Source of the DNA: Nitrospiraceae bacterium
GTDB taxonomy: Bacteria; Nitrospirota; Nitrospiria; Nitrospirales; UBA2166
Direction of reading: 5' to 3'
Assembly: GCA_002726235.1 (NCBI GenBank)
Contig: PBSN01000012.1
Location: forward strand, 1-39,306
Length of the DNA: 39,306 nt
The position numbers and the translations under genes are program-made. Positions 29,603 to 35,332 of this stretch are shown here, in pieces. Positions within the stretch are counted from its first letter, which is position 1, and every line of letters starts with the position of its first letter. The notes beneath the pieces were generated by a model. It saw only the letters and a list, made by a program, of their open reading frames with translations, was not told the origin of the DNA and did no database searches.

Positions 29603-30679
29603 GTGTCTAAACTAATGTGGCCAGTGGCGATTGGGGGTGTTTGTGCGGTTGTGACGTGGATTGTCTCTGGGATGCTCCACTTTCCTCTGATCTTTCAATG
29701 GATGTTCATGTTCTATATCGCGCTTGGGACAGGGGTGTTTCTCTTGCTCGCGGCGCCGGAGCTTCCCCTATTGCGTACTGGGAAAGCGATCGTAGGGCTT
29801 GTCGCATTTTATCTCTTCACTTCGGGGGTTTTTTTAGCGGGTGGTGCAATTCTTCCTCAATTCGATCCGACGGTTGAACAGGAGAAGATCAATAAAATTC
29901 TGAAACATCGGCGCGCGCAATTTGAGGCGCCGGATAACACTGAACAACTTCTTAAGAAAGCTCAAGTTTTGTCAGTGCAAGCCAACGACTTGATGGGACG
30001 TGTTGCAAAATTGCAAGGTACGGCTGCCCCCATTCTTGTTGCTTCGGCGGGGGCAACGCTTTCTCCTGTTGAACGAGGCAAGGAAGTCTACAACCTCTAT
30101 GAGTGTTACAATTGCCATAAAATTGGAGGTGAAGGGGGAACCAAGAAACGCGGGCCTGAAATGGGCAATCTTGGCAATCTTCTCACTCCAAAGCAAATCA
30201 TTAAGAAGATCCTGAGTACGAAGGCCGATCCGTACTTCTACGCGGAGGGGTTTGAAAAAGAACACAAGAAGGGGTTGATGCCGGAAAAATACCGCGAGCT
30301 GATGACCGAGGAGGAATTGAGTACTCTCGCGGCGTACTTAATGACACTTAAGAACCCGGCCCATAAAACACCTAAGCCTATCTTCCTGAAGGACGAAGTG
30401 GAACATGGATTCACGGTGTACGGTTATGTTCGAGACGTGAATGGTCAGCCGGTGCCGAATATGAAGGTTGCGGCTCGGCCTTCCACAGCCGGCAGCCACG
30501 CTGCCTCAGCCACCACGAATAAGGATGGGTATTATGAGGCCTTCATCCATCTCCACAATACGGATGCAGGTGCGCTCATTCGCTTGTCGGTTCGCAACCA
30601 GAAGAAAGAACTTCGTGCTGACTTTGACCCATTGGATAAAACAACCAAACGTCAGGCGACCGTGGATTTCACACTATAA
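29603..30679 (+). CDS. Membrane-anchored cytochrome c with carboxypeptidase-regulatory-like C-terminal domain
   Basis: The product has 358 residues from a GTG start preceded by GAGAGGG. Three hydrophobic helices (about 5-24, 30-50, 62-82) are followed by a charged linker. A single c-type haem site, C168-Y-N-C171-H172, has the distal methionine M226 in GLMPEKY, a class I monohaem layout. Residues 265-358 are a beta-sandwich of the carboxypeptidase-regulatory type (FTVYGYVRDVNGQPVPNMKV, TNKDGYYEAF). It probably carries electrons on the outer face of the inner membrane. The redox partner is not in the window. It is followed by the tandem exported paralogs after 191 bp. Confidence 0.88.
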   Translation: MSKLMWPVAIGGVCAVVTWIVSGMLHFPLIFQWMFMFYIALGTGVFLLLAAPELPLLRTGKAIVGLVAFYLFTSGVFLAGGAILPQFDPTVEQEKINKILKHRRAQFEAPDNTEQLLKKAQVLSVQANDLMGRVAKLQGTAAPILVASAGATLSPVERGKEVYNLYECYNCHKIGGEGGTKKRGPEMGNLGNLLTPKQIIKKILSTKADPYFYAEGFEKEHKKGLMPEKYRELMTEEELSTLAAYLMTLKNPAHKTPKPIFLKDEVEHGFTVYGYVRDVNGQPVPNMKVAARPSTAGSHAASATTNKDGYYEAFIHLHNTDAGALIRLSVRNQKKELRADFDPLDKTTKRQATVDFTL

Positions 30680-30870: not shown

Positions 30871-31437
30871 ATGAGAATAGGGACTGTGATCGCAGGATTG
30901 GCGGTGCTGGTTATCTTGGCACCAATTTCGTTTGCCGACGAGGGGCACAACGGCCATGGGAAAATGGGTGCTGCTGGGCCTGTGTCGTCTGAAGCTCTTC
31001 GAGATGTCGGAATAGCCATTGCAAATATGGCCATGGGATGTGCGGTGGAGTGTGGGCTTGAAACCTTCGAACCTTTCAGCCCAGCTCAGCCTAACCACTT
31101 GTGGATTAAGGCAAGCGATAACTACGTATGGTTCCTTCATTTCAACAAGCCTCGGAACCATAAGGCGGCAAAGGTGGTATTCGTTGGAGACGGCGTGAAG
31201 GGGCGTTTTTGTTCCGAGGATCAGCCAGATGGTGGAAAGACGGGTTTTGTTCATTTCCACAGAGCGGAGACATCGGCGGGTGCCATGGGTCATGGTGGCA
31301 AGCCTGGGACTGATGGCTGGTGGCTTCGCCATGTTGCGGTCGGAAAGTCTGAGATGAAAATGAAAGGGATGTCGATGCAGTTTGTGCCTGGGCTTGCGAT
31401 GAAATTTCCGCCGACTCCAGCACCGTCATGCTCATAA
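30871..31437 (+). CDS. Exported protein of unknown family, tandem paralog 1
   Basis: The product has 188 residues. AAGGAGG lies 7 nt before the ATG. A signal peptide ends near SFA-DEGH, and the mature N-terminus is His-rich (DEGHNGHGKMG). The core has FSPAQPNHLWIKASDNYVWF, then FLHFNKP, a central GRFCSEDQPDGGKTGF and VHFHR, and GHGGKPGTDGWWLRHVAV. The C-terminus is Met/Pro-rich and ends PSCS. I do not recognise the family. The His, Met and Cys content would suit metal or haem contact in the periplasm. Compared with its neighbour at 31505 it has an extra MGCAVEC segment near residue 50. The pair arose by duplication. Confidence 0.78.
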   Translation: MRIGTVIAGLAVLVILAPISFADEGHNGHGKMGAAGPVSSEALRDVGIAIANMAMGCAVECGLETFEPFSPAQPNHLWIKASDNYVWFLHFNKPRNHKAAKVVFVGDGVKGRFCSEDQPDGGKTGFVHFHRAETSAGAMGHGGKPGTDGWWLRHVAVGKSEMKMKGMSMQFVPGLAMKFPPTPAPSCS

Positions 31438-31504
31438 AGTATGGCTTGAGTACCCCTCAGAGATTCTCACTGAAGATTCTATTCGCAGAAGAAGGAGAAA
31501 CGTC

Positions 31505-32098
31505 ATGAATTCAGGAATTCGTCGCAGTGGCATTGTCTTCGTCATTCTGGTTGCAGCCTGTGGCCTCTTCGCATCAGGGAGTGTTGCCGATGAAGGGCAT
31601 GGTGGGCATTCCAGCATGAGTGGTCCCGTTCCCTCGTGGACGGCGATGCAGGCTGTTGGTGAAACGCTGGCCAAAGTCTATGACTTCAAACCCTTCAGCC
31701 CAGCTCAGCCCAACCACTTGTGGATGAAGGCGTCAGACAACTATGCAACTTTCCTGCACTTTAATAAGCCTTTTTCTAAGAAAGGCGCAAAGCTCGTTTT
31801 TGTCGGTGATGCTGTGAAGGGGCGGTTTTGTTCCGAGGATCAGCCGGATGGCGGAAAGACGGGCTTTGTTCATTTCCACAGAGCAGTGACGTCGGCAGGT
31901 GTCATGGGTCATGGTGGCAAGCCTGGAACTGATGGCTGGTGGCTTCGCCATGTTGCGGTTCGTCATGCTCCAATGAAAAATCCGAAGACAATGAAGAAAA
32001 TGATAGTCAAGCCTGGCTTGGCCATGATGTTCATGCCGACAAAGGCGCCAGCTTGCTCTTCTTCGGGGAAAGGACCTCTGCTTCCATTACCGGAATGA
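31505..32098 (+). CDS. Exported protein of unknown family, tandem paralog 2, overlapping the fusion enzyme
   Basis: The product has 197 residues, with AGAAGGAG before the ATG. The signal peptide carries a possible lipobox VAAC but is also cleavable at SVA-DEG. The mature part starts DEGHGGHSSM and shares the core with paralog 1: FSPAQPNHLWMKASDNY, FLHFNKP, GRFCSEDQPDGGKTGF, VHFHRA and GHGGKPGTDGWWLRHVAV. Its C-terminal tail is longer, basic and proline-rich after PACSS. The stop TGA overlaps the ATG of the fusion enzyme (ATGA, 32095-32098), strong evidence for co-translation. It may be a partner or substrate of that enzyme, but this is inference. Confidence 0.8.
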   Translation: MNSGIRRSGIVFVILVAACGLFASGSVADEGHGGHSSMSGPVPSWTAMQAVGETLAKVYDFKPFSPAQPNHLWMKASDNYATFLHFNKPFSKKGAKLVFVGDAVKGRFCSEDQPDGGKTGFVHFHRAVTSAGVMGHGGKPGTDGWWLRHVAVRHAPMKNPKTMKKMIVKPGLAMMFMPTKAPACSSSGKGPLLPLPE

Positions 32099-34608
32099 CG
32101 CTTTTGCAAGGGGCTACGGTACTGTACCAGCCCGAGTGTACTGAGTTCGAACGCAACGGCCTGTGTTTTTTTGTTGATGGGGGCCGTCCCAATTGGGTAT
32201 CGACCGATTGGCGCGGCGCGGCGGTGCTTCGTCTGATCGATGGGCGCCGAACGTTGAAGGATCTCGTTTGTGATTATGGCGAGCAGGTTCGGATTGATCC
32301 TCTACGGGCGTGGGTTCATGTTCGTAGGTATGTGCAGGCGGCGCTACGCAGCGAGATTGTCTCCCTTGCTCCCATAATTCCAGAGAGGTATTCCGGACGG
32401 GCGTCGTACCTTCGCCCGTCCGCTCTCAATGAGTTTTGGGTGCATACGAACAATTCATGCAATCTTACCTGTTCCCATTGCCTTGTCTCTTCTCATCCTG
32501 GTGCTGATCCGGGACCATCGACCGCGCATCTACTTCGCGTGATGACAGAAGCAAAAGAACTTGGAGCTTCGCGATTTTACTTTACCGGGGGTGAGCCTTT
32601 TCTTCGCAAGGACATCTTTCAACTTGTTGAGCATGTCACCAAAACACTTGATTCCGAGCTCATTGTGCTCACGAATGCGACCTTGTTTCGTGGCACAGTT
32701 TTAAAGCAGCTTGCTGCGCTTGATCGAACACGATTGAAGCTTCAGATTAGTCTCGATGGCGCGACATCTGAGGTGAATGATCCGATTCGTGGAGAAAAGA
32801 CGTTCGAGAATATCACGCGAGGCATTCAAGCCGCTGTTGGAATGGATATTGAGATCTCACTGACTGCCGTATTGACTGGAACAAACCTGACAGATATTCC
32901 CAAGCTTCCGGCCTTGGCAAAGTCTCTTGGTGTCCAATCGATTCACGTGATGTGGATGCATCGTCGCGGAAGAATTTTAGACCATGCCAATCTGCAGTTT
33001 CCCAGTAATGCGCAAATGCTGGCGTCGATGCGCTTGGTCAAACAGTATGCCGATGAATATGGTGTGACATTAGATAATTTTGAGTCCCTTCATGGGAGGG
33101 TGAATGGACGTCCTGGCGTCAAGGTCGATCTCAGCAATGCCTGCTGGGATAGTCTCTGTCTGAGCTATGATGGGCATGTCTACCCTTCGGCGTCATTTGC
33201 GGGGCATCCTGAGCTTGATCTTGGCGATACCAGAACGGCCTCTTTGCGTTCGTTGTGGTTGGAAAGCGCCGTCGCGAAAGACATTCGAACCGCAACGGTG
33301 GCGAATAAGGCTGGAGTATCGAACGATCCGTTTCGGTTTATTTTGGGTGGAGGAGATATTGAACATAGCTACTTCTTCTCAGACCAGCGGCTTGGTAGGA
33401 GTCATGTGTTGGATGAGGACCCGTACTACGGGCTCTATGTTGAACTGTCCAAGGACATTATGGTCCACCTCGCGGAATCGAAACGGTCTGCTTTCAATGC
33501 AACCTCTGGGTTTGATGGGCCAATCCTGCTTCATGTGATGGGGGAGGGAATGGCCACTTGTGGCAGTCATTTCTGGGATACGCCGGTCACCACGCTGCAT
33601 TCCAATTGTGTGCTGGCGTTTAACGTAGAGACGCCTCATGACATTATTCAGGATTATTACGGGAAGGCAGCAGAGGTTCCTCAACCGGAATTGTGCTGTA
33701 CCATCGATGGCTATTCCGAAGAGGAACTCTCGCATATCCCGCAGGAAGTCCGCGAACGTTCGTATGGGTGCGGGTCGCCCATGAGAAGCGCAGGGATTGA
33801 AGAGAGTGAAACCATCGTGGATTTTGGCTCCGGTGCTGGCATTGATTGTTTTGTTGCCGCACGAAAAACGAGCTGTTCGGGACGTGTAATTGGCGTCGAT
33901 ATGACCGACAATATGCTACAGGTCGCTGAGCGCAATCGATGTCAGGTTTCTAAATTGCTTGGCTATGACAATGTTGAATTTCGCAAAGGATATTTGGAAG
34001 AGATTCCAGTTCAGGATAAAACGGCAGATCTTGTCACCTCCAATTGCGTCATCAACCTCTCTCCTGACAAAAAAGCCGTGTTTTCGGAAATTTGGAGAAT
34101 TCTCAAGAATGGTGGTCGGACGGTGATTTCTGATATCGTCTCCGAGTGCTTGGTGCCTCCCACCATCAAAGTGAACAATCAACTGTGGGGAGAATGTATT
34201 GCGGGTGCGTTGACCGAAGAAGAATTTATCGCCTCACTCGAAGAGGCAGGTTTTTATGGAATAGAGCTACTTCAGAAGGTGGTATATCGTGACGTCGAAG
34301 GACACCGGTTCAATGCTGTAACCGTACGGGGTTATAAATACGAAATGTCCGTTGGGCCTTCCGAGAATGGATTTGTAGCGATTTATCGTGGTCCAATGAA
34401 AATGGTCGTGGATGAGGCCGGGAAGGCCTATCACAGAGGTGAGTCTGTTCCCGTCTCAGCACACACCGCGGCACGGCTTCAAACTTATCCATACACTTCT
34501 CTTTTCACAGTGATTCCCCCCGAACATCAATCGATGGATATTTTGCCGTCGACACAATCCTCAGGAGACTCGCCTTTTATCTCCGGGGAAGTCTCCTGTT
34601 GCTCCTAA
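32095..34608 (+). CDS. PqqD-like / radical SAM / ArsM-type methyltransferase fusion protein
   Basis: The frame is open from 31939, but that part reads out of frame through paralog 2. The ATG at 32095 overlaps its stop by 4 bp and starts the first domain, giving 837 residues. Residues 1-95 resemble PqqD (AAVLRLIDGRRTLKDLV). The radical SAM core has C122-x3-C126-x2-C129, GGEPF at 165-169 and a reduced SPASM-like end (C350, C355). An unrecognised bridge with C489 and C505 covers about 410-510. Residues 512-810 match arsenite methyltransferase: YYGK, ELCC (C534, C535), YGCGSP (C559), SAM loop DFGSGAGID (576-584), NCVINLSPDK (C651), GECIAGAL (C701) and the IYRGPMKMVVDE tail domain. It ends in SCCS. 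It probably builds an organoarsenical or modifies a peptide. Confidence 0.9.
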   Translation: MTLLQGATVLYQPECTEFERNGLCFFVDGGRPNWVSTDWRGAAVLRLIDGRRTLKDLVCDYGEQVRIDPLRAWVHVRRYVQAALRSEIVSLAPIIPERYSGRASYLRPSALNEFWVHTNNSCNLTCSHCLVSSHPGADPGPSTAHLLRVMTEAKELGASRFYFTGGEPFLRKDIFQLVEHVTKTLDSELIVLTNATLFRGTVLKQLAALDRTRLKLQISLDGATSEVNDPIRGEKTFENITRGIQAAVGMDIEISLTAVLTGTNLTDIPKLPALAKSLGVQSIHVMWMHRRGRILDHANLQFPSNAQMLASMRLVKQYADEYGVTLDNFESLHGRVNGRPGVKVDLSNACWDSLCLSYDGHVYPSASFAGHPELDLGDTRTASLRSLWLESAVAKDIRTATVANKAGVSNDPFRFILGGGDIEHSYFFSDQRLGRSHVLDEDPYYGLYVELSKDIMVHLAESKRSAFNATSGFDGPILLHVMGEGMATCGSHFWDTPVTTLHSNCVLAFNVETPHDIIQDYYGKAAEVPQPELCCTIDGYSEEELSHIPQEVRERSYGCGSPMRSAGIEESETIVDFGSGAGIDCFVAARKTSCSGRVIGVDMTDNMLQVAERNRCQVSKLLGYDNVEFRKGYLEEIPVQDKTADLVTSNCVINLSPDKKAVFSEIWRILKNGGRTVISDIVSECLVPPTIKVNNQLWGECIAGALTEEEFIASLEEAGFYGIELLQKVVYRDVEGHRFNAVTVRGYKYEMSVGPSENGFVAIYRGPMKMVVDEAGKAYHRGESVPVSAHTAARLQTYPYTSLFTVIPPEHQSMDILPSTQSSGDSPFISGEVSCCS

Positions 34609-34630
34609 ACGTCGAACGGCTCTCTATTCC

Positions 34631-35332
34631 ATGTTGACTGTTAATCGCCAGACGATTGCCATTGGACTGGTTATTCTTGTGCTTGGCCTTGGGATCGCTG
34701 CGTTTGTGGTCATGGAGTTTTCCGACACGTTTCATATTCCAACACCCGACGAGATCTCAGTATGGGTCGAGGGATATGGAGGAGCCGGTCCGGTGGCGTA
34801 TCTTCTACTTTACACGTTTGCCCCAATGTTGTTTGTCCCCAGCTTTCCGATTAGCATGGCGGCGGGACTTCTATTTGGACCGTTATGGGGCACGGTGTTC
34901 GCCTCGTTAGGATCAACCCTTGGCGCACTTCTCCCCTTCATCATTGCGCGACACTTTGCCCGGCCGTATGTTGCGCGACATCTTCGTGGTCGGCTGAAAG
35001 ACTTAGATCAGAAAATAGAGGCCCATGGCTGGATATATTTGGCCGTTACACGATTGATTCCACTATTTCCATTCGAACTTCTCAATTATGGTTTTGGCTT
35101 GACCAAGGTCAGGTTTGTGACATACATTGTCGTGTCGTGGCTCGGAATGCTGCCAGCAACGATTGCGTACGTGTTTTTCGGGGCATCAATGTTGGATATC
35201 GTTGAGGGTACATTCCGCATCGAGCTTGTTATTGGAGTGGTTCTCTTCGCTGTCCTAGGTCTTTTGCCAGTCATTTATCGGCGATCTCGTTATTTCAAAC
35301 CCAAGCAGAAACCTGAGAAAACGATTGGCTAA
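34631..35332 (+). CDS. TVP38/TMEM64 family membrane protein (SNARE-associated/DedA-like fold)
   Basis: The product has 233 residues with five or six hydrophobic helices. The family core is evident: FVPSFPISMAAGLLFGPLWG, GSTLGALLPFIIARHFARP and TRLIPLFPFELLNYGFGLTK, followed by SWLGMLPATIAYVFFG. A basic tail ends the protein. Such proteins are inner-membrane proteins proposed to move or scramble lipids or other substrates, and they often neighbour metal(loid)-related radical SAM genes. It begins 22 bp after the fusion enzyme stop, so it is very likely in the same operon and could handle its product or membrane partner. Confidence 0.88.
   Translation: MLTVNRQTIAIGLVILVLGLGIAAFVVMEFSDTFHIPTPDEISVWVEGYGGAGPVAYLLLYTFAPMLFVPSFPISMAAGLLFGPLWGTVFASLGSTLGALLPFIIARHFARPYVARHLRGRLKDLDQKIEAHGWIYLAVTRLIPLFPFELLNYGFGLTKVRFVTYIVVSWLGMLPATIAYVFFGASMLDIVEGTFRIELVIGVVLFAVLGLLPVIYRRSRYFKPKQKPEKTIG

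Follow-up and report, generated by a model that had tools for sequence, protein, structure and literature searches.

What does a cell make when a radical S-adenosylmethionine (SAM) enzyme resembling the peptide maturases is joined to an arsenite methyltransferase? This question is raised by the window, a 39,306-nucleotide stretch of a Nitrospiraceae bacterium (contig PBSN01000012.1 of GCA_002726235.1), which encodes an 837-residue fusion protein at 32095..34608 on the + strand. Domain, structure and alignment searches place in it a PqqD-like recognition domain (RRE), a radical SAM domain, a degraded SPASM region and an ArsM domain. This triple architecture was noticed in the original prediction, and its coordinates and domains were confirmed. 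The favoured reading, at a probability of roughly 0.55, is that the fusion is a one-polypeptide, two-step organoarsenical synthase in which the RRE/SPASM-type radical SAM half takes the place of ArsS. The reading is favoured because the ArsM cysteines are conserved and every member scanned matches an arsenite methyltransferase model; because the fusion and ArsS never overlap in the window's class and swap within two families and one order; because an unfused pair lies beside arsenosugar-type genes; because an opposite-order fusion occurs in Bacillota; and because accessory genes, among them TIGR04283, are common to fusion and ArsS genomes.

The two halves of the fusion protein

The C-terminal half (33640..34608) belongs to the ArsM family, as judged by its sequence and key residues. 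Methyltransferase models of Pfam match residues 569-719. The NCBIfam arsenite methyltransferase model NF008823 matches with an E-value of 2.8e-70 and 236.9 bits, narrowly missing the curated cut-off of 263, and all 35 fusion members scanned match the same model. The best solved structures are ArsM enzymes, with the arsenite methyltransferase 8xt7 in PDB at 2e-36. The domain carries a C-terminal CCS and the cysteines C535, C559, C651 and C701, which are conserved in 36-37 of 37 fusion proteins. Known ArsM enzymes have four conserved cysteines at the As(III) site, numbered C44, C72, C174 and C224 in the algal enzyme. C559, C651 and C701 align with cysteines of solved ArsM enzymes and C535 only loosely. 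The original prediction had also counted C534 among the ArsM cysteines, and this part of it did not stand; the residue is cysteine in 18 of the proteins and tyrosine in 19.

The true substrate of this half could be selenium, antimony or another soft element instead of arsenic, since some selenoprotein families (NF041537 and NF041536) join a relative of ArsM to an unrelated domain. These families resemble the present protein in that ArsM is joined to a second domain, but their second domains are DUF2284 and AhpD, whereas that of the fusion is a radical SAM domain. The retention of the four As(III)-site cysteines and the PiT-type transporters that adjoin the fusion in family f5 make another element a very improbable substrate.

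The N-terminal half begins with the PqqD-like/RRE domain (about residues 1-95, 32095..32380). The match of the window protein alone to Pfam PF05402 is weak (E=0.06, below the gathering score), though the family is matched by 34 of 36 fusion homologues, the best at 2.2e-13. The radical SAM core follows (about residues 111-315, 32425..33040) and matches PF04055 at 1.7e-19 over residues 120-269. Its motif C122-x3-C126-x2-C129 is conserved in 36 of 37 homologues, the remaining row having an ambiguous residue. Residues 1-515 were modelled with AlphaFold2, and the model has a mean predicted local distance difference test score (pLDDT) of 91 and a predicted template modelling score of 0.91. Its best structural match is CteB, over residues 13-463 (Z 29.9, root-mean-square deviation 4.1, 412 residues aligned). 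TigE matches over residues 8-475 (Z 25.8), and SuiB is also found among the fold matches. CteB and TigE are maturases of ribosomally synthesized and post-translationally modified peptides (RiPPs) and include an N-terminal recognition domain. Because PF05402 is so widespread among the homologues and the model matches CteB and TigE, this half is assigned, with the predicted structure as a guide, to an RRE, radical SAM and SPASM-type framework. The PqqD-like N-terminus and the CxxxCxxC domain of the original prediction were thus both borne out.

The SPASM-like region (residues 344-515, 33124..33639) has diverged in the window's lineage. In the f34 clade, all 19 proteins have cysteines at window positions 347, 350, 355, 365, 408, 411, 417, 421, 445, 500, 503 and 505. 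Those at 347, 365, 421, 500 and 503 are lost in 18 of 18 proteins of the window's class, and the window protein retains only C350, C355 and C505. Since most of the SPASM cysteines are gone, neither auxiliary cluster is likely to be intact in the window protein, judging from the alignment; the motif for the SAM-cleaving cluster is intact.

The maturase-like fold suggests a second reading, in which a peptide or protein substrate, possibly one of the His- and Cys-rich exported proteins encoded upstream, is bound through its leader by the RRE, modified by the radical SAM domain and methylated or loaded with arsenic by the ArsM domain. The predicted fold over residues 8-475 is like that of the RRE-rSAM-SPASM maturases CteB, TigE and SuiB. 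The fusion differs from these enzymes in that no precursor was found, its SPASM cysteines have mostly disappeared in the window's lineage and an ArsM domain is attached. A search within 2.5 kb of the fusion gave no conserved small open reading frame (ORF) except a thioredoxin-like gene in three loci, although a precursor may be encoded elsewhere in the genome. Modification of a peptide or protein is therefore considered improbable. Of the two products raised in the original prediction, the organoarsenical now leads on the ArsM cysteines and the exclusion of ArsS, and the modified peptide is weakened by the negative precursor search and the lost SPASM cysteines.

Distribution and exchange with ArsS

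The distribution of the fusion was examined with a profile of residues 1-515 in 395 Nitrospirota genomes. Full fusions of about 800 residues are present in 38, of which 16 belong to the window's class and 22 to another class (families f34, f41 and f43). The same three-domain order therefore occurs well outside the window, including in three genus-mates with 81-86% identity. Among the fusion genomes, the fusion of G280 is split into two ORFs and that of G152 (family f6) is truncated by contig ends. The full-length fusion was absent from the plasmids and viral contigs searched for a mobile origin.

ArsS was called by TIGR04167 in the same genomes and is present in 218 of them. In the window's class it is found in 139 genomes and in 0 of the 16 with the fusion; the two never co-occur. 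Family f6 is divided, G152 having the fusion and G283 having ArsS. Family f9 is divided in the same way (fusion in G275 and G308; ArsS in G182, G243 and G336), and so is the window's own order, where genus g1 has the fusion and families f2, f3 and f4 have ArsS. Fisher's exact test of fusion against ArsS gives p of about 5e-17, a value made too small by shared ancestry and obtained with a set carrying neither gene of only seven genomes listed in the same order. The three separate exchanges remain despite shared ancestry.

The radical SAM half is itself not an ArsS, as judged from profile matches, because it has no match to TIGR04167. This model is not among the best 25 NCBIfam models for the window fusion and, at E<=1e-40, has no match in the fusion carriers G000, G001 and G003. 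The fusion is like the ArsM and ArsS pathway (TIGR04167; cyanobacterial SsArsM/SsArsS) in pairing an arsenite methyltransferase with a radical SAM enzyme, and TVP38, PiT, TIGR04283 and TIGR04282 neighbours are common to both. It is unlike that pathway in having a radical SAM half of RRE/SPASM-type fold, joined to ArsM in one chain and without a TIGR04167 match in the class.

The shared neighbours are best seen in gene order. In family f5 the order is GT83-fusion-PiT-TVP38, so that TVP38, PiT and TIGR04283 genes surround the fusion. The ArsS genome G188, from the window's order, has PiT, ArsM, ArsS, GT83 (TIGR04283) and TVP38 together, and G010, from the same order, has ArsM-ArsS-PiT. TIGR04283 exceeds its cut-off in 16 of the 17 fusion genomes of the class, the window's own being the exception, in all 13 ArsS genomes and, among 12 genomes from outside the order with neither gene, in one. 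The corresponding counts for TIGR04282 are 14/17, 13/13 and 1/12. Genomes of the order itself that lack both ArsS and the fusion often retain these glycosyltransferases (TIGR04282 in 7 of 7), so their occurrence is not restricted to genomes with ArsS or the fusion.

The two halves also occur as separate genes. In family f15 the radical SAM gene is unfused (about 480 residues) and is followed by TIGR04282 and a glycerophosphodiesterase; a stand-alone ArsM, 49-50% identical to the fused ArsM, lies in an ArsM-TVP38-TIGR04283 operon. TIGR04282 and TIGR04283 are both above curated cut-offs in f15, and each is named by NCBIfam as an arsenosugar biosynthesis glycosyltransferase. In the ArsM tree, the split ArsM of f15 groups with the fusions of the window's class (98/93), separate from f34. 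With distant radical SAM enzymes as the root, the tree of the radical SAM half is broken by long branches and gives no order of fusion and split form.

Beyond Nitrospirota, sampling covered 299 genomes of Bacillota, the phylum of Candidatus Avamphibacillus. One of these, G686, encodes a 785-residue protein with the domains in the opposite order, ArsM-RRE-rSAM-SPASM (L241:6410-8764, + strand). Its ArsM domain lies at residues 32-254 and is followed by RRE-like, radical SAM and full SPASM regions with complete cysteines; it aligns at 31% identity to residues 21-513 of an f34 fusion. A TIGR04283-like gene was seen 3.3 kb upstream of it.

Fusion in both orders, together with the separated pair, is strong evidence that ArsM and the radical SAM enzyme work together. 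This bears on a third reading, that the ArsM half performs ordinary detoxifying methylation while the radical SAM half acts on an unrelated small molecule or serves as a regulatory or As(III)-binding partner, so that the fusion would provide co-expression only. The closest radical SAM models include AhbD, NirJ and mycofactocin enzymes, and f34 loci have a BchE/HpnJ-type B12 radical SAM gene, both of which fit such a role. However, mere co-expression would account poorly for fusion in both orders, for a split pair that still lies beside arsenosugar-type genes and for the exclusion with ArsS, and this reading is considered unlikely.

Proposed reaction and points against it

In the organoarsenical synthase reading, the ArsM half would bind As(III) through C535, C559, C651 and C701 and methylate it with SAM. 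The radical SAM half would cleave a second SAM to produce a carbon radical and attach the resulting group to the methylated trivalent arsenic. It would thereby take the role of the separate ArsS, which acts after ArsM in arsenosugar synthesis. This order of steps is suggested by analogy with the known pathway, where ArsM acts first and then ArsS, as cited in PMC8552651. The RRE/SPASM framework would have come from the peptide maturase family and been re-used, and the loss of most auxiliary-cluster cysteines in the window's lineage is more in keeping with simple radical addition than with oxidation of a peptide. TVP38 may act in membrane steps of this pathway, and TIGR04283 and TIGR04282 enzymes encoded elsewhere in the genome may elaborate the product. 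We infer the substrate, the transferred radical and the product from these comparisons.

A related possibility is that the radical SAM half performs ArsL-like chemistry. ArsL and ArsM are an established pair in arsinothricin synthesis (PMC8552651), where a radical SAM enzyme and ArsM likewise occur together and both act on the same arsenic atom. In addition, the ArsM half has NF040538, the arsinothricin-synthesis ArsM, as its second-ranking NCBIfam match, with a score far below that model's cut-off. On the other hand, ArsL is a separate protein, the 25 best matches listed for the fusion do not include its model (NF040542), no ArsQ-like transporter gene was recognised near the fusion and the accessory genes are of the arsenosugar-cluster type. 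An ArsL-like reaction is thus a doubtful alternative.

Several observations weigh against the organoarsenical synthase reading. RRE domains usually bind the leader of a peptide. In f34, of the other class, 11 of the 19 genomes with the fusion have ArsS as well, which is not the picture of a simple replacement; the exclusion of ArsS is a feature of the window's class and not of the whole fusion family. TIGR04283 is above its cut-off in only half of the f34 genomes tested, and at the f34 loci the fusion is accompanied by a B12-type radical SAM gene. In the window's own genome, a metagenome-assembled genome that is 90.65% complete, neither TIGR04282 nor TIGR04283 was found, and three genus-mates have them. 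Nor is the fusion the sole ArsM of the genus, which encodes a second one as a stand-alone protein. Finally, phylogeny confounds the co-occurrence statistics.

There is about an even chance that the fusion represents a third class of arsenic-modifying radical SAM enzyme, unrelated to ArsS and ArsL, based on an RRE/SPASM framework, recruited as ArsM's partner at least twice (in both orders, and also found unfused) and making an organoarsenical. Only two radical SAM routes to carbon-arsenic compounds, ArsS and ArsL, were found in the literature searched, and no description of a fusion with this architecture was found in the open-licence papers searched, in agreement with the original prediction. 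If true, a third non-homologous route would widen the known chemistry of the peptide-maturase-type radical SAM family and provide a single-gene organoarsenical synthase that can be directly expressed and tested. Nitrospirota and at least one Bacillota genome would join the likely makers of complex organic arsenic. The exchange of ArsS and fusion inside families would be a natural experiment on the product of each.

Neighbouring genes and the exported proteins

The gene downstream of the fusion (34631..35332, + strand) encodes a TVP38/TMEM64 membrane protein with a VTT domain (Pfam PF09335, 1.5e-27, residues 69-185). It starts 22 bp after the fusion stop at 34608, as was originally described. 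In the window, it is the only one of TVP38, PiT, TIGR04283 and TIGR04282 to adjoin the fusion. The linkage recurs, with TVP38 adjoining the fusion in the window's genus, f9 and f12 and the unfused ArsM in f15.

Two exported proteins are encoded upstream on the + strand. Exported protein 2 (31505..32098) has 197 residues, and its paralogue, exported protein 1 (30871..31437), has 188. Certain His and Cys residues are invariant in their family (window 30871-32098; L116-L119). Neither Pfam nor NCBIfam gave a match to the exported protein; its structural model is poor (pLDDT 66), and Foldseek gave no match at E<=0.001. The fusion ATG at 32095 overlaps the stop of the 31505-32098 ORF by 4 bp. The frame upstream of this ATG stays open to a GTG at 31939, but the alignment of the four genus members starts at the ATG.

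These proteins are possible substrates under the peptide or protein modification reading. In addition to the overlapping genes, pairs of RREs and signal-peptide-bearing precursors are known (PMC12710340), and exported homologues occur in 7 of 38 fusion genomes compared with 4 of 357 genomes without the fusion (11/395 in all). However, genus-mate UWMA-0026 lacks both exported genes and keeps the order of cytochrome c, fusion, TVP38 and kinase, and no exported homologue was found near the fusion in f34, f5, f8, f9 or f12. Beyond the genus, only f7 has one near the fusion, three genes away on the opposite strand in three loci. The four genomes with exported proteins and no fusion carry ArsS, and three of the four are without any ArsM relative at the threshold used. 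The exported proteins, which the original prediction coupled to the fusion, were rejected as defining partners on this distribution. They are not required by the fusion, but may add something to the system.

The B12-binding radical SAM gene directly follows the fusion in 19 loci of f34, f41 and f43, and in f34 it lies about 30-40 bp 3' of the fusion in most of 19 loci; for one example (L095:10436-11920, + strand) the closest models are BchE and HpnJ. The stand-alone ArsM of the window's genus has 403 residues (L127:8261-9472, + strand, contig C8 of G000; also L128 and L129) and lies beside Pst-type phosphate-transport genes. An ArsR-like ORF adjoins it in two genus-mates. A further ORF, L175:413-1444 (contig C37 of G193), has a first half that does not resemble ArsM and a C-terminal ArsM segment that shares 54% identity with the fused ArsM; it could be another remodelled ArsM or the result of an assembly join.

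In f6, whose full fusion gene is cut by contig ends, L103:8253-8549 (contig C15 of G152) is a near-identical second copy of the middle part of the fusion and lies at a contig end with one in-frame TGA. Reading this TGA as selenocysteine was rejected because it stands at a glycine position of the near-identical copy; it is probably an assembly or point error. The window also encodes, 5' of the fusion at 29603-30679, a cytochrome c with a carboxypeptidase-regulatory-like C-terminus. Its 53% identical homologue in G010 (L133:1367-2437) lies about 5 kb from the ArsM-ArsS-PiT cluster of that genome.

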